Part shown: positions 22,891 through 30,743 of the stretch, piece after piece | How positions within the stretch are numbered: the first letter of the stretch is position 1 | How the letters are laid out: every line of letters begins with the position of its first letter | NCBI RefSeq assembly: GCF_002797735.1 | Contig: NZ_PGFG01000001.1 | Location: forward strand, 1,302,001 to 1,366,000 | Origin: Thermoflavifilum aggregans | Lineage (GTDB): Bacteria; Bacteroidota; Bacteroidia; Chitinophagales; Chitinophagaceae | DNA length: 64,000 nt | Direction of reading: 5' to 3' | Position numbers and translations under genes: made by a program | Notes under the pieces: generated by a model | The model's database searches: none | What the model was told of the DNA's origin: nothing | Seen by the model: the letters and a program-made list of their open reading frames with translations, nothing else

Positions 22891-22923
22891 TTTGGAGCTT
22901 TTCAAAATCCTTTTTTATCTTTG
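22891..22923 (+). promoter_or_regulatory. Bacteroidota-type promoter of the aromatic amino-acid operon
   Basis: TTTG at 22891-22894 and TATCTTTG at 22916-22923, 21 nt apart. This fits the Bacteroidota primary-sigma consensus TTTG, 19-21 nt, TANNTTTG exactly. Transcription should begin around 22930, about 15 nt before the leader-peptide ATG. Confidence 0.8.
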
Positions 22924-22944
22924 TCCATGTATTGAAAATTATTT

Positions 22945-23067
22945 ATGAGTTCCGCATCTGAAATAGTAAATATTAAACAAGCCACGGTGGCACATTCGCC
23001 GTTTTACTATTTCTTTTTTTATTTCTCCTTCCCTGAAGGAGGCGGGACTCGCTTGAAGCAGCCATAG
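22945..23067 (+). CDS. Phe/Tyr-rich leader peptide of a transcription attenuator
   Basis: A 40-codon reading frame from ATG 22945 to TAG 23067. Codons 20-29 (23002-23031) read FYYFFFYFSF, that is six Phe and three Tyr in ten codons. It lies between a strong promoter and a terminator hairpin, directly before pheA. This is the classical arrangement in which ribosome stalling on scarce Phe-tRNA or Tyr-tRNA controls read-through into the biosynthetic operon. The peptide itself probably has no other job. No Shine-Dalgarno is seen, which is normal in this phylum. Confidence 0.85.
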   Translation: MSSASEIVNIKQATVAHSPFYYFFFYFSFPEGGGTRLKQP

Positions 23068-23124
23068 TGCAAAGGAAAATGATTCATATTCAATCCCGCC
23101 TCCGAAAAAGGCGGGATTTTTTTT
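23025..23124 (+). promoter_or_regulatory. Attenuator: mutually exclusive antiterminator and terminator hairpins
   Basis: Four pairing regions are visible. Region 1, CTCCTTC (23025-23031, inside the aromatic codons), pairs with GAAGGAG (23035-23041). Region 2, GGAGGCGGGA (23038-23047), can instead pair perfectly over 10 bp with region 3, TCCCGCCTCC (23094-23103). Region 3 as AATCCCGCC (23092-23100) pairs with region 4, GGCGGGATT (23110-23118), followed by eight T: a strong intrinsic terminator. A ribosome stalled on the Phe/Tyr codons would cover region 1, free region 2 and block the terminator. The pairings are seen; the mechanism is inferred from classical attenuators. Confidence 0.85.
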
Positions 23125-23136
23125 AAATACGGATGT

Positions 23137-23964
23137 ATGCGCATTGCTATTCAGGGGTTTGAAGGAAGTTTTCATCAGATTGCAGCTCAGGAATATTTCC
23201 ATTCCCGCCAGCTCGAAATATTACCCTGCAGCACCTTTTCAGATGTAGTCAGAAAAGTGCATCGCCGGGAGGTGGATCGGGGTGTGATGGCCATTGAAAA
23301 TTCCCTGGCGGGTAGCATTTTACCCAATTATCAATTGTTGCAGCGTTATGAGTTGACTATTATCGGTGAAATTTACCTGAACATCAGGCAACATCTGATG
23401 ATGCTCCCTGAATATGATCTGGACGATATCCGGGAAGTACATTCGCATCCGATGGCATTGTTGCAATGTGCTGAGTTTCTGGAAAAACATCCGGAATGGA
23501 AGCTGGTGGAAACAGAAGATACGGCATTGAGTGCCCGCCACTTGCGCCAGTACAGAGCCCGGCATGTTGCCGCTATTGCCAGCAAACTTGCTGCTGAAAT
23601 CTATCAGCTGAAAATTGTGGCTCCCAACATCCACACCATGAAAAAAAATTATACCCGTTTTCTGATTTTAAGTCACGATACACAAACCAATCTTCCCGAT
23701 GGTGTGAATAAGTCTTCTATTAGTTTTCAAACCGATCATACGCGGGGAAGCCTGGCGCGGGTGCTGGTGAAAATTGCCGATGGCGGTATTAATCTTTCCA
23801 AATTGCAATCCCATCCTGTGCCTGGCTCAGAGTGGAGATATTATTTCTACGTGGATATGGAATTTGACCATTTTTCCCAGTTTGAAGCCGTAATCCGGGA
23901 CATTGAACCTCTGACACGCGATTTGAAGATTTTAGGTGTTTACCAAAAAGGACAAACCATATGA
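23137..23964 (+). CDS. pheA: Prephenate dehydratase
   Basis: Converts prephenate to phenylpyruvate in phenylalanine synthesis. The 275 residues start with the PDT fold (RIAIQGFEGSFHQIAAQEYF) and carry GVMAIENSLAGSILPNYQLL. Later comes the catalytic-region NYTRFLIL near residue 170. A C-terminal ACT regulatory domain (about 185-270, HTRGSLARVLVKIADGGINLSKLQSHP) suggests feedback inhibition by phenylalanine. There is no fused chorismate mutase; that activity is on the DAHP synthase downstream. It is the first structural gene after the attenuator and overlaps the next gene by 4 bp. Confidence 0.95.
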   Translation: MRIAIQGFEGSFHQIAAQEYFHSRQLEILPCSTFSDVVRKVHRREVDRGVMAIENSLAGSILPNYQLLQRYELTIIGEIYLNIRQHLMMLPEYDLDDIREVHSHPMALLQCAEFLEKHPEWKLVETEDTALSARHLRQYRARHVAAIASKLAAEIYQLKIVAPNIHTMKKNYTRFLILSHDTQTNLPDGVNKSSISFQTDHTRGSLARVLVKIADGGINLSKLQSHPVPGSEWRYYFYVDMEFDHFSQFEAVIRDIEPLTRDLKILGVYQKGQTI

Positions 23965-25151
23965 ATAAGCTTTCACTGGCCAAGAGATTGCAGGGCACTG
24001 ACGAATATTATTTTTCAAAAAAGCTTCGGGAGATCGAAGTTTTGAATCAATCCGGCGCACAGGTCATCAATCTGGGCATCGGCAGTCCGGATTTGCCACC
24101 GCATCCTGATGTAATAGCTACCCTTGCAGAGCAGGCAGCCAGGCCGGAGGTGCACGGGTATCAATCATATCGTGGAGCCAAAGCATTGCGGGAGGCCATA
24201 GCTGCATTTTACCGGCAATGGTATGGCGTGGTGTTGGATCCGGAATCAGAAATCCTTCCCCTGATAGGTTCCAAGGAAGGCATTGTGCATATCAGCATGA
24301 CCTATTTGAATGAAGGTGATGAAGTACTGGTGCCTGATCCAGGCTATCCTACCTATCGGGCGGCATCACAGCTGGCAGGAGCCGTTTGCCGCACATACGC
24401 CTTGCGAGAAGATCAAGGCTGGCTGCCCGATTTTGAGGCTCTGTCCAGGATAGATTTGAGCAGGGTTAAAATCATGTGGCTTAATTATCCGCATATGCCT
24501 ACCGGGACCCTGCCTACGCGTGAGTTTTTTGAACAATGTGTGGATTTTGCTTCCCGGCATGGTATTTTGCTTTGCCATGATAATCCCTACAGTTTTATTC
24601 TGAACGACAAGCCCATGAGCATGCTGTGTGTGCCCGGAGCAAAAGAGGTAGTCCTGGAGCTGAATTCCCTCAGCAAATCAGCTAACATGGCCGGATGGCG
24701 GGTGGGCATGCTTTGCGGACAGGCCGGTCGCATCAGCGAAGTACTGCGGTTCAAAAGCAACATGGATTCGGGAATGTTTCTGCCTGTGCAGCTGGCAGCG
24801 GCTAAAGCCTTGTCGTTACCTGCCTCGTGGTATCACAGCCTGAATGAAACCTATGCACGCAGGCGGGAAAAAATATGGGCATTGCTCAGGCAATTGGGTT
24901 GCACGTGGAATCCCCGGCAGGCGGGATTGTTTGTGTGGGCCCATATTCCCGCCGGCTGGCCGGATGGTTTCGCTTTCAGCGATGCAGTGCTGCATCAGGG
25001 ACATGTTTTCATCACACCGGGCGGCATTTTTGGACAGCAGGGGAAAGAGTATATCCGATTGAGTCTTTGTCAGCCCGAATCTGTACTGGAAGAAGCTCTC
25101 CAACGAATTCAACTCACACATTTGCAAATTCCTGAAACTACACGCGTATGA
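23961..25151 (+). CDS. Class I/II aminotransferase, probably for aromatic amino-acid synthesis
   Basis: 396-residue PLP enzyme of fold type I. NLGIGSPDLPPHPDV is near residue 40, SRHGILLCHDNPYSF carries the cofactor-contact Asp, and the Schiff-base Lys is in NSLSKSANMAGWRVG near residue 235. Its place between pheA and tyrA, overlapping each by 4 bp, points to transamination of phenylpyruvate/hydroxyphenylpyruvate or of prephenate. Homologues are often annotated as LL-diaminopimelate or aspartate aminotransferase, so substrate assignment rests on the operon. Confidence 0.88.
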   Translation: MNKLSLAKRLQGTDEYYFSKKLREIEVLNQSGAQVINLGIGSPDLPPHPDVIATLAEQAARPEVHGYQSYRGAKALREAIAAFYRQWYGVVLDPESEILPLIGSKEGIVHISMTYLNEGDEVLVPDPGYPTYRAASQLAGAVCRTYALREDQGWLPDFEALSRIDLSRVKIMWLNYPHMPTGTLPTREFFEQCVDFASRHGILLCHDNPYSFILNDKPMSMLCVPGAKEVVLELNSLSKSANMAGWRVGMLCGQAGRISEVLRFKSNMDSGMFLPVQLAAAKALSLPASWYHSLNETYARRREKIWALLRQLGCTWNPRQAGLFVWAHIPAGWPDGFAFSDAVLHQGHVFITPGGIFGQQGKEYIRLSLCQPESVLEEALQRIQLTHLQIPETTRV

Positions 25152-25987
25152 AAATAGCTATTGTAGGAATCGGGTTGATAGGTGGATCACTGGCGCTGGA
25201 GCTGCGAAGAACAGGGATCGCTACTAGGCTTATTGGCGTAGAGGCTAATTCCCGGCATGCATCCCAGGCATTGGAAAGAAAGCTGGTAGATGAGATTTGT
25301 GAACTCCCCGATGCCATCCGCAAAGCAGATATGGTGGTGATGGCCGTACCGGTGAACGCCCTGCTGCATTTGCTCCCTGCCGTACTGGATCAGACCGACA
25401 GACAGATTGTGGTGGAAGTGGGTTCAACCAAGGAAAAAATTCTTCAGGCTGTTGCAAACCACCCGCGCAGGGGCCGGCTGGTGGCATCCCATCCCATGGC
25501 AGGTACGGAATATTCAGGTCCTGAGGCTGCTGTTGAAAAATTGTTTTGTGGGAAAAACGTGGTGCTTTGCAATATTGATGAAAGTGATCCCGACGCCGTA
25601 GAACAGGTGAAAAAAATGTATGAAACATTGGGTTGCCGGCTTATCTACATGGATGCGGCTTCCCACGATCTGCATGCAGCTTATGTTTCTCATATTTCGC
25701 ATATCACCTCATTTGCGCTGGCACTTACGGTGCTGGAAAAGGAAAAAGAAGAAAAAGCCATTTTCGATCTGGCAAGCGGAGGTTTTGCTTCAACGGTACG
25801 TCTGGCCAAAAGCTCGCCCGACACTTGGATTCCGATCTTTCAGCAAAACCGGCATAATGTGCTGGATGTGTTGTATGAACATATTCATCAGCTGAAACGC
25901 ATTAAGCAAATGCTGGTGGATGAAGATTATGAAGGATTCTATAAACTTATCCAGGAAGCCAATGCGATCCGGAAAATTATTCATTGA
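25148..25987 (+). CDS. tyrA: Prephenate dehydrogenase
   Basis: NAD-dependent oxidation and decarboxylation of prephenate to 4-hydroxyphenylpyruvate for tyrosine. The 279 residues begin with the Rossmann motif IVGIGLIGGSLALELR. VEVGSTKEKIL and the active-site ASHPMAGTEYSG are near residue 115. The C-terminal helical dimerisation domain contains AAYVSHISHITSFAL. There is no C-terminal ACT domain, so control may be mainly through the operon attenuator, whose leader also has tyrosine codons. It overlaps the aminotransferase gene by 4 bp. Confidence 0.93.
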   Translation: MKIAIVGIGLIGGSLALELRRTGIATRLIGVEANSRHASQALERKLVDEICELPDAIRKADMVVMAVPVNALLHLLPAVLDQTDRQIVVEVGSTKEKILQAVANHPRRGRLVASHPMAGTEYSGPEAAVEKLFCGKNVVLCNIDESDPDAVEQVKKMYETLGCRLIYMDAASHDLHAAYVSHISHITSFALALTVLEKEKEEKAIFDLASGGFASTVRLAKSSPDTWIPIFQQNRHNVLDVLYEHIHQLKRIKQMLVDEDYEGFYKLIQEANAIRKIIH

Positions 25988-26038: not shown

Positions 26039-27148
26039 ATGGAAAAAGTTGCAACTGCCCAGTCCATCTGGCAGAAACTTCAGCAGAAACAACCGGTGAT
26101 TATTTCCGGTCCATGCAGCGCCGAAACCGAATTTCAGGTGCTGGAAACTGCTATCAGGCTGGCCAAAACCGGCAAGGTCGACGCTTTCAGGGCAGGTGTA
26201 TGGAAGCCACGTACCAAACCTGGCATGTTTGAAGGTGTGGGTACCGAAGCCCTGCAATGGCTCAAGAAAGCAAGAGAAATTACCGGGCTGCCGCTGATTG
26301 TGGAAGTGGCTACAGCCCGCCATGTGGAAGAATGCCTGAAGGAGGGCATTGACATGGTATGGATTGGTGCCCGTACCACCGTGAATCCGTTTTCCGTGCA
26401 GGAACTGGCCGATGCGCTGCAGGGAACAACCATTCCGGTTTTTATCAAAAATCCGCTCAATCCGGATCTGGAACTCTGGCAGGGAAGCATTGAACGACTG
26501 AAAAAAGCCAATATCGCCCACGTAGGTGTCATTCACCGGGGTTTCTCCAACTACGGCAATACGGAATACCGCAACGCGCCTATGTGGCATATTCCCATTG
26601 AACTGAAACGGCGCATGCCAGAACTGCCCATGTTGTGTGATCCCAGCCATATCTGCGGGCGTCGGGATCTGCTGTTTGAAGTAGCCCAGAAAGCCATTAA
26701 CCTGGATTACGACGGGCTGATGATTGAAACCCATATTGATCCGGACAACGCCTGGAGCGATGCCAAACAACAAATCACGCCCGAGCGGCTTGCAGAGCTG
26801 CTTCAACAAATAGAATGGAGGCAGGAAACCACTGAGAAGGAAGCCTTTTTGAATGCGCTGGCCAAATTCCGGGAACAAATCAATCATATTGACGATGAAA
26901 TCCTTACCCTGCTGGGCAATCGCATGAAAATTGCCGAGAAAATCGGGATCTACAAAAAGGAAAACAATATTACCATCCTGCAAACCAACCGCTGGAATGA
27001 AATCCTTGAAAAAGCATTGAAAAAAGGAGAAAAACTGGGTTTAAGCAAGGATTTTATCCTGAAATTTTATGATGCCGTGCATCTGGAATCTATCAACCGG
27101 CAGCATAAAGTAATGATGGATTACGATCATCCGCAGCAAACATCCTGA
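26039..27148 (+). CDS. aroF: Bifunctional DAHP synthase / chorismate mutase
   Basis: First step of the shikimate pathway fused to the branch point to prephenate. Residues of about 1-265 are a class I-beta DAHP synthase: IISGPCSAET near residue 22, the KPRTKPGMFEG loop, FIKNPLNP and LCDPSHICGRR. Residues of about 275-360 form an AroQ-type chorismate mutase (LAKFREQINHIDDEILTLLGNRMKIAEKIGIYKKE). This DAHP synthase-mutase fusion is typical of Bacteroidota, and the mutase part usually gives feedback control by prephenate or aromatic products. It begins 51 bp after tyrA. Confidence 0.95.
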   Translation: MEKVATAQSIWQKLQQKQPVIISGPCSAETEFQVLETAIRLAKTGKVDAFRAGVWKPRTKPGMFEGVGTEALQWLKKAREITGLPLIVEVATARHVEECLKEGIDMVWIGARTTVNPFSVQELADALQGTTIPVFIKNPLNPDLELWQGSIERLKKANIAHVGVIHRGFSNYGNTEYRNAPMWHIPIELKRRMPELPMLCDPSHICGRRDLLFEVAQKAINLDYDGLMIETHIDPDNAWSDAKQQITPERLAELLQQIEWRQETTEKEAFLNALAKFREQINHIDDEILTLLGNRMKIAEKIGIYKKENNITILQTNRWNEILEKALKKGEKLGLSKDFILKFYDAVHLESINRQHKVMMDYDHPQQTS

Positions 27149-27150
27149 TT

Positions 27151-28191
27151 ATGCCATCTGCAAAGCTTATTCATCATACCATCGGCCAGGAGGTTACCGA
27201 TTATTATGTGGGGTATTCCTGGGAACGGCTGCGTGAATTGGTTCCGGCTGATCGTACGGTGTTGCTGGTGGATGAACAGGTAGCCCGGCATCATCCCCGG
27301 CTCACGGAAGGCTGGCAAACCTTGATTGTCCCATCCGGAGAAGCTAGCAAAAGCTGGGAAATGATGCACCATCTGATTGATGCTTTGTGCCAACTACAAG
27401 CCGATCGCAGCTGGCATCTGGTGGGGGTAGGGGGTGGGGTGGTTACGGATCTGGCAGGTTTTCTGGCGGCTGTGTATATGCGAGGCCTGGCATTTGGCTT
27501 TGTGCCTACCACGCTGCTGGCTCAGGTAGATGCCAGCATAGGAGGCAAAAACGGAATTGATTTCGGAAAATATAAGAATCTGGTAGGCACTATTCGTCAG
27601 CCTAGGTTTGTGCTCATGGATCCAGCACTGTTGCAAAGCCTTCCCCGGCCGGAATGGCAAAATGGGTTTGCTGAAATCATCAAATATGCCTGTATTGCTG
27701 ATCGTGATTTGTTCGAATTTCTGGAGCATCATCGCCGGCAAGCTCTGCAAGGCGATGCAGAAACCCTGTTTCATCTCATCCTAACATCTCTTGAACATAA
27801 ATTGCGCATCGTAACGGAAGATCCTTTTGAAAAAGGAATCCGCAGGTTTTTAAATTTCGGGCATACCCTGGGACATGCCATTGAAAAGGTGATTGAAATT
27901 CCGCATGGACAGGCAATCAGTGTTGGTATGCGGGTAGCCTGCCAGCTTTCTGAACAATTATCGGGATTGCAACCAGCCGAAACGCAGCGCATCAGCGATC
28001 TGCTGCAGGCTTATGGATTGCCGACCACCTTGCCGGACATTGACTGGAACGAGGTATGGGATTGTTTGCGTCATGATAAAAAGCGGGAAAAGGAAGTCCT
28101 GCATTTTATCCTGCTGGAAACCATAGGCCGGGCTCGTATTGTGCCCATTGCTTTGCACGAGCTGGAGCTTTTGTTGCCTGTGTATTGGTAA
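27151..28191 (+). CDS. aroB: 3-dehydroquinate synthase
   Basis: Cyclises DAHP to 3-dehydroquinate, NAD- and metal-dependent. The 346 residues contain the NAD-binding GVGGGVVTDLAGFLAAVYMRG near residue 92, and FVPTTLLAQVDASIGGKNGID. The metal-ligand region NGFAEIIKYA and the His pair in NFGHTLGHAIE are also present. Only 2 bp separate it from the DAHP synthase gene, so the two are almost certainly co-translated. All motifs are intact. Confidence 0.95.
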   Translation: MPSAKLIHHTIGQEVTDYYVGYSWERLRELVPADRTVLLVDEQVARHHPRLTEGWQTLIVPSGEASKSWEMMHHLIDALCQLQADRSWHLVGVGGGVVTDLAGFLAAVYMRGLAFGFVPTTLLAQVDASIGGKNGIDFGKYKNLVGTIRQPRFVLMDPALLQSLPRPEWQNGFAEIIKYACIADRDLFEFLEHHRRQALQGDAETLFHLILTSLEHKLRIVTEDPFEKGIRRFLNFGHTLGHAIEKVIEIPHGQAISVGMRVACQLSEQLSGLQPAETQRISDLLQAYGLPTTLPDIDWNEVWDCLRHDKKREKEVLHFILLETIGRARIVPIALHELELLLPVYW

Positions 28192-28254
28192 ATGCTGGGA
28201 GTTGAAAATAAGCGATGACATTGTTTTTATCCACATATAGTTTTGCAGATTGAA

Positions 28255-29532
28255 ATGGAAATAGTTGTCAGCAGTTCGGTAATTGATGGCGATATAAAGG
28301 CCAATCCCTCCAAAAGTGCCATGCAAAGGGCGCTGGCAGCCGCCTTATTGGCCGAGGGGAAAACGGTGATCCGCAATGCGGGATTCAGTGATGATTGCCG
28401 GGCGGCGATGGGGGTGGTGCAGGCGCTGGGAGCAGATGTGCATGTACAGGATCAGGTGGTGGAAGTCACAAGCCGAGGTATCCATCCCCGCTCTGCTGTG
28501 ATTCATTGCGGAGAAGCAGGTTTATGCATGCGCATGTTTACGCCTGTGGCTGCTTTATATGAAGGTGAGTTAACCATCACCGGGGAGGGTAGCCTGCTGA
28601 AACGGCCTATGCGTTTTTTTGAAGAGGTGCTGCCCCGGCTGGGAGTATCCTGTCAAACCCATGAAGGTTTGCCGCCCCTTCGGATTCGCGGGCCCCTGCA
28701 GCCCGCTTCCATCACCGTGGATGGTTCATTGAGTTCCCAGTTTCTGACCGGACTATTAATGGCTTTTGGTGCAACAGCCAGCCATGCAGAGATCCGGGTG
28801 CAGGACCTGAAAAGCCGGGAATACGTGGATCTGACCTTGCAGATCATGGATATCTTTGGGGTGAAGGTTGAGCGCGATGGGTATCAGAAATTTTCATTTA
28901 CCCGAAAACAAACTTATCGTCCTACCACTTATACCGTGGAAGGGGATTGGAGTGGTGCCGCTTTTCTGCTGGTAGCTGCAGCTATAGCAGGTAAAGTAAC
29001 CCTGCGGCATCTTTCGAGACAATCGGCTCAGCCTGACAGAGCCATCACACAGGCCTTGTACGACGCAGGGGCCTTCTTAATTTGGGATGATGACCGGCTT
29101 ACCGTACAGCGCCATGAGCTCCGCGGATTTTATTTCGATGCCACGGATTGTCCAGATCTTTTCCCACCTTTGGTAGCGCTGGCTGCTCATTGCCGGGGAA
29201 CAACGAGGCTGCAGGGTGTCAACCGTCTCCTCCACAAGGAAAGTAACCGGGGTAAAACTTTGCAGGAAGAATTTGGGAAAATGGGAATTGACATCCAGAT
29301 TTCCGGTGATGAAATGATGATTCGGGGAGGTAAAATCAAGCCCGCATCGGTATTTTCCCATCACGACCATCGCATTGCCATGGCTACAGCAGTAGCTGCA
29401 CTGGCCGGTACGGGCGAAATCACCGTGCAGCATGCAGAAGCTGTAAACAAGTCCTATCCTGAATTCTGGCAGCATCTCAGCCAGATCGGAGGGAAAATAA
29501 AGCCTGTGCAGGCTTCCAAAACTCTATCCTGA
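28255..29532 (+). CDS. aroA: 3-phosphoshikimate 1-carboxyvinyltransferase (EPSP synthase)
   Basis: Joins PEP to shikimate 3-phosphate. From the ATG at 28255 the protein has 425 residues; an in-frame TTG at 28243 is less likely. Substrate-site motifs are KANPSKSAMQRALAAALL at the N-terminus, GEAGLCMRMFTPVAAL, GSLSSQFLTGLLMA near residue 155, and KESNRGKTLQEEF. The C-terminal HDHRIAMA is also present. GEAGLCMR replaces the common G-N-A/S-G-T of well studied EPSP synthases, so this is a divergent Bacteroidota version. Confidence 0.93.
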   Translation: MEIVVSSSVIDGDIKANPSKSAMQRALAAALLAEGKTVIRNAGFSDDCRAAMGVVQALGADVHVQDQVVEVTSRGIHPRSAVIHCGEAGLCMRMFTPVAALYEGELTITGEGSLLKRPMRFFEEVLPRLGVSCQTHEGLPPLRIRGPLQPASITVDGSLSSQFLTGLLMAFGATASHAEIRVQDLKSREYVDLTLQIMDIFGVKVERDGYQKFSFTRKQTYRPTTYTVEGDWSGAAFLLVAAAIAGKVTLRHLSRQSAQPDRAITQALYDAGAFLIWDDDRLTVQRHELRGFYFDATDCPDLFPPLVALAAHCRGTTRLQGVNRLLHKESNRGKTLQEEFGKMGIDIQISGDEMMIRGGKIKPASVFSHHDHRIAMATAVAALAGTGEITVQHAEAVNKSYPEFWQHLSQIGGKIKPVQASKTLS

Positions 29533-29568: not shown

Positions 29569-30579
29569 ATGAATAGCTTCGGAAGAATTTTTCGGATTTC
29601 CATATTTGGTGAGTCGCATGGGCCGGGAGTAGGGATTGTGGTGGATGGCTGTCCCGCGGGTATTCCCTTGTGTGTGGATGATTTTATGACTGATATTGCC
29701 CGCCGCAAGGCCGGCGCCAAAGGTACCACGCCTCGGCAGGAGGCGGATCTGCCCATTCTTCAATCGGGAGTTTTTCAGGAACATACTACCGGATCACCTA
29801 TCATGATCTGGTTTGAGAATCAGAATACCCGATCGGTTGACTACGAAAAACAGCGGGATGTGCCCCGTCCGGGTCATGCCGATTTTGTAGCCCGGATCAA
29901 ATATGGCGGATATGAAGATTACCGGGGAGGTGGGCATTTCAGCGGTCGCCTGACACTACCTCTGGTGGCTGCCGGTGTGATTGCCAAAAAGATTCTCCAA
30001 CTGGGCACTACGCCTGTGGATGTACAAGCGCGCATTCTGGAAATTGGTGGGGAGGCTGATCTGGAAAAAGGATTGGAAAAAGCCATTGCAGCCAAGGATT
30101 CGGTTGGGGGTATTGTGGAATGTGTAGCTACGGGCCTTCCCATAGGATTGGGTGAACCATTTTTTGATTCGGTGGAGTCATTGCTTGCCCATGCGGTATT
30201 TTCCATTCCGGCTGTCAAAGGTATTGAATTTGGTGCCGGATTCCGGGCAGCGCGGATGTTCGGCAGTGAACACAATGATGCCATTATCGATGCCAGTGGC
30301 AAAACTGCTACCAATCATGCAGGCGGGGTGGTGGGCGGACTCACCAATGGCAATCCGCTTGTTTTTCGCGTGGTGGTAAAACCCACATCTTCCACACCCA
30401 GAACTCAGCATACGCTGAATTTGCGTTCTGGAGAAGTAGAACCTTTCAGTGTAAAGGGCCGGCATGATCTCTGTATTGCATTGCGTGTGCCTGTTGTATT
30501 GGAAGCAGTAACAGCCATTGTTCTGGCCGATCTGATGTTGGTAGCCCAGCAGCGACCCATGCGCTTGCCGCACAAATAA
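29569..30579 (+). CDS. aroC: Chorismate synthase
   Basis: Makes chorismate from EPSP using reduced FMN. The 336 residues begin NSFGRIFRISIFGESHG, the first family signature. ARRKAGAKGTTPRQEAD follows, then RPGHADFVARIKYGGYEDYRGGGHFSGR and the later GGVVGGLTNGNPL. It is somewhat shorter than the 350-360 residues usual in the family, through internal trimming and not truncation. It is the last gene of the aromatic operon and is followed by a strong terminator. aroD, aroE and aroK are not in this window. Confidence 0.95.
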   Translation: MNSFGRIFRISIFGESHGPGVGIVVDGCPAGIPLCVDDFMTDIARRKAGAKGTTPRQEADLPILQSGVFQEHTTGSPIMIWFENQNTRSVDYEKQRDVPRPGHADFVARIKYGGYEDYRGGGHFSGRLTLPLVAAGVIAKKILQLGTTPVDVQARILEIGGEADLEKGLEKAIAAKDSVGGIVECVATGLPIGLGEPFFDSVESLLAHAVFSIPAVKGIEFGAGFRAARMFGSEHNDAIIDASGKTATNHAGGVVGGLTNGNPLVFRVVVKPTSSTPRTQHTLNLRSGEVEPFSVKGRHDLCIALRVPVVLEAVTAIVLADLMLVAQQRPMRLPHK

Positions 30580-30707: not shown

Positions 30708-30743
30708 AGGATCGGGATATGTATCACTTCCCGATCCTTTTTT
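30708..30743 (+). terminator. Intrinsic terminator of the aromatic operon
   Basis: AGGATCGGGA (30708-30717) pairs over 10 bp with TCCCGATCCT (30729-30738) and is followed by TTTTT. It lies 129 bp after aroC and 30 bp before the next start codon. The stem shares the GGATCGGG/CCCGATCC core with the hairpin spacer of the CRISPR array. Confidence 0.9.

Follow-up and report, generated by a model that had tools for sequence, protein, structure and literature searches.

The window, that is, the whole 64-kb (64,000-nucleotide) stretch of Thermoflavifilum DNA analysed here, contains a leader region followed by seven genes in the order pheA-aminotransferase-tyrA-aroF/CM-aroB-aroA-aroC (Table 1). The first-pass annotation of this DNA had described a seven-gene operon including tyrA and the first shikimate enzyme behind the leader, and the Pfam assignments agree with it. 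The genes for Phe and Tyr synthesis (pheA, tyrA and the shikimate genes) match the amino acids of the control codons in the leader. All seven genes are present in 52 of the 92 loci whose downstream sequence extends for 7.5 kb or more. For the aminotransferase the best NCBIfam models are those of LL-diaminopimelate aminotransferases, the best 25 of 65 all scoring below cut-off. The position of the gene in the operon suggests that it encodes an aromatic aminotransferase.

Table 1. Leader region and operon: features, with positions in the window
Feature	Position	Strand	Basis
Bacteroidota-type promoter, TTTG-N21-TATCTTTG (boxes at 22891-22894 and 22916-22923)	22891..22923	+	both boxes read from sequence
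Leader-peptide ORF, 40 codons, MSSASEIVNIKQATVAHSPFYYFFFYFSFPEGGGTRLKQP	22945..23067	+	sequence; putative translation
Control codons 20-29, FYYFFFYFSF (6 Phe, 3 Tyr, 1 Ser)	23002..23031	+	sequence, codon constraint
1:2 hairpin, 7 bp, CTCCTTC-CCT-GAAGGAG, pause/protector candidate	23025..23041	+	sequence, genus conservation
Region 2, antiterminator 5′ arm GGAGGCGGGA	23038..23047	+	pairing, spacing, covariation, folding
Region 3, antiterminator 3′ arm TCCCGCCTCC, also within terminator 5′ arm	23094..23103	+	pairing
Predicted intrinsic terminator, 10-pair stem (23092-23118) and T tract (23117-23124)	23092..23124	+	-16.5 kcal/mol
pheA, prephenate dehydratase	23137..23964	+	PF00800, E=6.4e-61
Class I/II aminotransferase	23961..25151	+	PF00155
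tyrA, prephenate dehydrogenase	25148..25987	+	PF02153, PF20463
DAHP synthase fused to chorismate mutase	26039..27148	+	PF00793, PF01817
aroB, 3-dehydroquinate synthase	27151..28191	+	PF01761, PF24621
aroA, EPSP synthase	28243..29532	+	PF00275
aroC, chorismate synthase, last gene of the operon	29569..30579	+	PF01264
Terminator-like hairpin and T run 3′ of aroC, likely operon end	30708..30743	+	read by eye

Anatomy of the leader

In front of pheA the annotation had placed a promoter, a 40-codon ORF with the FYYFFFYFSF run, a 7-bp hairpin, a 10-bp antiterminator pairing and a terminator with eight T; every one of these elements was found at the coordinates it had given. The two promoter boxes are separated by 21 nt, and both were found in the four genus genomes whose sequence extends to that point. 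Within the window TTTG-N17-23-TANNTTTG is matched three times where chance predicts 3.4; one match is the leader promoter and the other two lie outside the operon. The promoter match by itself is therefore not significant. The motif is nevertheless conserved: TTG-N17-23-TANNTTTG occurs in 74 of the 140 leaders described below, as against 0.6% of mononucleotide shuffles.

The frame of the leader ORF is intact in all five genus genomes (in one it is truncated by the contig end). An in-frame GTG at 22987 is a possible alternative start. A 35-nt segment extending from before the aromatic codons into them (22980-23014) is invariant in the five genus genomes, synonymous sites included. It contains the GTG and a hairpin, ACGGTGGCACATTCGCCGT (22984-23002), and is possibly an additional pause or start-site element.

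Regions 2 and 3 form a perfect 10-bp antiterminator pairing. The antiterminator is exclusive with the terminator, and its 5′ arm lies shortly 3′ of the control codons, as in an attenuator. Between the T tract and the ATG of pheA there are 12 nt.

A run of eight consecutive Phe/Tyr codons occurs once in the genome, in the leader. Such a pattern is not rare as such, since its reverse has three matches in the same genome, and over 24 genomes it was not enriched (49 matches, 56 for the reversed pattern). In a rough look at eight other sites with the eight-codon pattern, one lay in a short ORF and a terminator was found at none (L254 was mis-centred, with an early contig end).

Conservation upstream of pheA

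In the family, 60 genomes gave 42 pheA hits, all of which were read upstream. The genus search (5 genomes, 5 hits) added three genomes beyond the family set, and 10 selected genomes gave 8 hits, all read. The phylum search yielded 258 hits in 296 genomes; a minority was read upstream, comprising the new loci of the initial phylum search and 40 loci picked for spread across families, with families f17 and f12 left out. From a collection of named genomes 80 loci were read of at least 591 matches, a set biased toward close relatives of the query. Together these made 192 upstream regions, mostly from Bacteroidota, 189 of them distinct; 188 extended 150 nt or more ahead of pheA. A leader was scored where a short ORF had at least six Phe/Tyr in 10 codons, and upstream regions were clustered by single linkage at 80% identity over 120 nt.

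A Phe/Tyr-rich short ORF was found in 155 of the 188 regions, and in 140 it was followed by a terminator. The combination was seen in none of 1880 dinucleotide shuffles and in one of 7544 control windows taken from these loci, the ORF alone in 42 and 103 of them, respectively. Counted per cluster, leader and terminator were present in 90 of 136 clusters, or in 86 of 113 when families defined only at phylum level were set aside. The terminator finder tolerates no bulges and therefore misses cases such as G030, where the hairpin preceding the T run is interrupted.

By family, leader and terminator occurred in 42/47 loci of f1, 5/5 of f3, 15/15 of f5, 3/5 of f2, 1/2 of f9 and 2/5 of f8; in f11 both loci had the ORF and neither had the combination (0/2). 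Family f1 is assigned here to Chitinophagaceae on the strength of the match between its leaders and the leaders of named loci. The combination was missing from f4 (0/6), f10 (0/2), three of the five f8 loci and 19 of the 23 loci of phylum-level families, the remaining 4/23 having it. The aromatic ORF was present at 40 of the 42 family pheA loci. Among the named loci 75 of 76 had the ORF and 68 of 76 had leader and terminator, the bearers including Chitinophaga, Niastella, Hymenobacter, Alistipes, Phaeodactylibacter and Sediminibacterium. The first-pass annotation had proposed to look for the aromatic codons and the alternate pairings in relatives; both are kept in Chitinophagaceae (f1) and in several other families.

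Three loci, L073 (G211), L219 (a Verrucomicrobiota MAG) and L239 (a KSB1 MAG), carry a near-Bacteroidia-type pheA with a leader in records assigned outside the class. The operon may have been transferred with its attenuator, or the records may be misbinned.

The aromatic control codons

Among 123 related pairs of leaders, which are not independent of each other, single-base codon differences in the aromatic stretch comprised 119 synonymous changes, 83 Phe/Tyr exchanges and 6 changes to non-aromatic codons; a further 57 codon differences involved more than one base. Random single changes in Phe and Tyr codons would be expected to give a non-aromatic codon in 7/9 cases. The pattern looks like that left by selection on translated Phe and Tyr.

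Both residues occur in 140/140 leaders and in all 90 cluster representatives, which is about the chance expectation at 60% Phe:40% Tyr mixing; only the interleaving exceeds chance. With one leader per cluster, interleaving of Phe and Tyr was above the permutation mean in 70, below it in 19 and at the mean in one (sign test, p=5e-8). Trp occurs somewhere in the ORF in 37 of the 140 leaders.

Antiterminator pairing and folding

Region 2 starts a median of 10 nt past the last aromatic codon (7-14 nt, 10-90% range). Phe/Tyr occupancy is 92-96% at 5-8 codons upstream of region 2, 84% at 4 and 40% at 3, and farther upstream it declines from 82% at 9 codons to 58% at 12. At 2 and 1 codons upstream it drops to 2% and 1%. 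Because the search for region 2 began only past the final aromatic codon of the densest stretch, the lack of Phe/Tyr from region 2 onwards follows from the method, but the two positions just before it were free to be filled. The absence of Phe and Tyr from the last two codons is expected if the leading edge of a stalled ribosome must clear region 2; a ribosome stalled one or two codons upstream would mask it.

The helix formed by region 2 with the arm of its own terminator scored 13.1, compared with 8.0 in shuffled sequences. In 99 of 140 loci it was unmatched by any of 20 shuffles, and in 41/140 at least one shuffle equalled it. Per cluster the score was 12.8 with the cluster's own terminator and 8.9 with that of another cluster, the own pairing exceeding the foreign one in 86 of 90. 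In 49/90 clusters under 5% of foreign terminators reached the own score, and in 41/90 at least 5% did so. On these comparisons region 2 covaries with the terminator of each locus.

For the Thermoflavifilum locus we folded the RNA left free by the ribosome, with its leading edge set at 12 nt. In the full-transcript fold, stalling at codons 20-25 gave the antiterminator and positions from codon 26 to the stop codon gave only the terminator; control codons 26-29 thus already favour the terminator, as do stalls at codons 18-19. In folds of 139 relatives, a ribosome placed on the first aromatic codon let the antiterminator form before region 4 was made in 135, whereas one placed on the stop codon did so in 0/139. 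With the complete transcript and a stalled ribosome, the terminator won in 118/139 and the antiterminator in 20/139, and we rejected a purely thermodynamic switch for most relatives on this ground. According to the folding model, the switch must be kinetic in most of them.

The 1:2 hairpin

The first-pass annotation had found all four regions of a classical attenuator. This holds for the locus itself and for the genus, where the 7-bp 1:2 hairpin is retained (with one G-U pair in G349), but did not extend detectably to the wider relatives: a conserved 1:2 hairpin was not detected in the 140 leaders (best helix 8.7 vs 8.0 shuffled), in a test that is weak because region 2 pairs easily with T/C-rich codons. 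Even the Thermoflavifilum hairpin was not singled out by it, 24 of 30 shuffles reaching its score. The 1:2 helix was clearly above shuffles (at most 1/30 reaching it) in 16 of 140 loci. The hairpin would be dispensable if the ribosome masks region 2, and it may be that the moving ribosome itself does so in place of the hairpin.

Other leaders and tandem copies

Leaders before other amino acid operons follow the same logic in the family. For trpE (L270-L280), 11 of 12 loci were examined (one was cut by the contig end), without shuffled control. All 10 testable loci, this genome included, had a leader with two or more Trp in 10 codons, with a terminator in 9/10 and WWW in 9/10. The trpE leader of this genome (L275) reads MNFKHVHISWWWHGVKLKSL. 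Before hisG, a leader with at least five His in 10 codons and a terminator was found in 6 of 11 testable loci, again without shuffled control (L142-L145, L147, L148); this genome (L138) has four His. Of the 17 ilvD loci found, 13 were analysed and 12 were testable, and one (G007, L283) had an Ile/Val-rich leader, MLNRIINNITNNSVIIIVVVIIISVTGGGV, with a terminator, a candidate Ile/Val attenuator. No leader was seen in the 9 of 19 homoserine dehydrogenase loci analysed; there the domain sits far inside a long fused gene, and the start of the operon may fall outside the 1500-nt flank.

Some pheA genes are preceded by two aromatic leaders. In four loci, L163 (Chitinophaga filiformis), L174 (C. cymbidii), L230 (Phaeodactylibacter) and L231 (a Saprospiraceae MAG), a terminator was detected for each leader. 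A single terminator was detected for the two leaders of L186 (C. costaii), of L175 and L198 (both Hymenobacter) and of L113 (G221). The first of the two leaders in L163 and L174 also has a Trp codon (FGYFYGFYFFWYQE).

Proposed mechanism and alternatives

We consider it highly likely that the leader is a ribosome-mediated transcription attenuator, whose RNA very probably lets the ribosome sense a shortage of Phe or Tyr and switch on the seven-gene set. The anatomy, conservation, covariation, codon constraint and spacing were read from the sequences, and we infer translation of the ORF, termination at the terminator, readthrough that follows tRNA charging, and OR logic. Transcription would start a few bases past the promoter (about 22930), and a ribosome would trail the RNA polymerase through the leader ORF. 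When charged Phe-tRNA or Tyr-tRNA is scarce, the ribosome would stall at codons 20-25 (up to 27 if kinetics decide), leaving region 2 free to pair with region 3 once this is made. The terminator could then not close, and the polymerase would enter all seven genes. When both tRNAs are charged, the ribosome would run on across region 2 as far as the stop codon; region 3 would then pair with region 4, and the terminator would form and stop transcription before pheA. Because the Phe and Tyr codons are interleaved, the leader would act as an OR sensor responding when either is short.

The coding constraint on the aromatic stretch, and the small variation of the N-terminal part within the genus, would also suit a small hydrophobic protein that has a function and a terminator of its own; the pairing with the terminator would then be incidental and pheA would be expressed separately. 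This is very unlikely: between families the peptides share little outside the aromatic stretch, region 2 covaries with the terminator of each locus, and the gap between T tract and pheA is too short for a second promoter. It is just as improbable that the leader responds to a general slowdown of translation or to an antibiotic by nascent-chain stalling and not to tRNA charging. Excerpts of the literature do report leader peptides with such roles in other bacteria, yet here the identity of the codons fits the operon that follows, with Phe/Tyr for pheA-tyrA, Trp for trpE and His for hisG, and the sequence surrounding them is variable.

An intrinsic terminator and an alternative fold, as found here, would also be present in a T-box, a riboswitch or a protein-bound antiterminator that merely contains an ORF. 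We regard this as scarcely credible, since no Rfam family, T-box included, reached its gathering score in the window, and none matched at the leader of any of 16 relatives (L088 had one unrelated Flavo-1 hit). Ribosome-mediated attenuation at the pheA leader is supported by the same logic in the family, where Trp-rich leaders precede trpE and His leaders precede hisG.

On balance we lean towards an old attenuator common to much of Bacteroidia, with three RNA segments and no conserved pause hairpin, spacing set by the ribosome footprint, an OR gate for Phe and Tyr made by interleaved codons, control of entry into the whole shikimate pathway, and tandem copies in Chitinophaga, Phaeodactylibacter and the Saprospiraceae MAG (two leaders also in Hymenobacter). 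If so, transcription and translation would be kinetically coupled in a phylum that departs from the Shine-Dalgarno rule, a deviation of translation initiation stated for F. psychrophilum in the available part of PMC9723704. Classical attenuation is the standard textbook example of the control of transcription by translation; a conserved Phe/Tyr leader, together with Trp and His leaders, is now found in Bacteroidota, and the leader predicts ribosome-polymerase coupling there. The 90 clusters supply naturally occurring versions of regions 2-3-4, and of the spacing of the control codons, from which the construction of such switches can be learned.

Relation to known systems

A 2004 survey of attenuation reportedly mentions Bacteroidetes/Chlorobi in its abstract. 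According to its accessible text, a 2010 survey knew demonstrated leader-peptide systems only from Proteobacteria and Actinobacteria, to which it added a case from Firmicutes (PMC2965389). For Bacteroides thetaiotaomicron, short ORFs reminiscent of leader peptides are mentioned in an excerpt of PMC7366714. In F. psychrophilum, strong clues for leader-peptide attenuation before amino acid operons and a conserved structured 5′ element of pheA, shared with other Flavobacteriaceae and without Rfam match, are described in the available passages of PMC9723704. The first-pass annotation knew of no description in Bacteroidota; this needs amending in view of those attenuation clues and the pheA element, with which the system is not wholly undescribed in the phylum. 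The Flavobacteriaceae element resembles the present leader in phylum, gene, suggested attenuation and lack of an Rfam match, but concerns one bacterial family, and for pheA the passages do not state a peptide, its codons or a pairing. Beyond PMC9723704, no description of a Phe/Tyr leader in Bacteroidota was found among the literature matches listed. The uORFC-13-1 motif before aroF of Acholeplasma has a short ORF with Phe codon(s) and a terminator before a DAHP synthase gene; it differs in phylum and in serving aroF only, and the excerpt states at least one Phe codon and no Tyr (PMC8632094). The kind of attenuator is thus known and its presence in the phylum was already suspected; no published account of its anatomy across many families, of the Phe/Tyr code or of the tandem copies was found among the matches listed.

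The enterobacterial pheL-pheA attenuator (RF01859, Phe_leader) shares with our locus a leader ORF with aromatic codons, an antiterminator and a terminator before pheA. In E. coli, pheL attenuates pheA alone, whereas the Thermoflavifilum leader has Phe and Tyr codons, seven genes behind it and a Bacteroidota promoter. The RF01859 covariance model scored 26.9 bits at this leader (cut-off 55, E=0.015), below threshold; such sub-threshold Rfam near-hits were treated as chance, two unrelated families having lower E-values. Attenuators that respond to several amino acids are known from the thr (Thr and Ile) and ilv (Ile, Val and Leu) operons of E. coli, in which one leader senses several products of a branched pathway, as proposed here. 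In the present leader, by contrast, the amino acids are Phe and Tyr, their codons are interleaved, and the first shikimate enzyme is encoded in the same operon.
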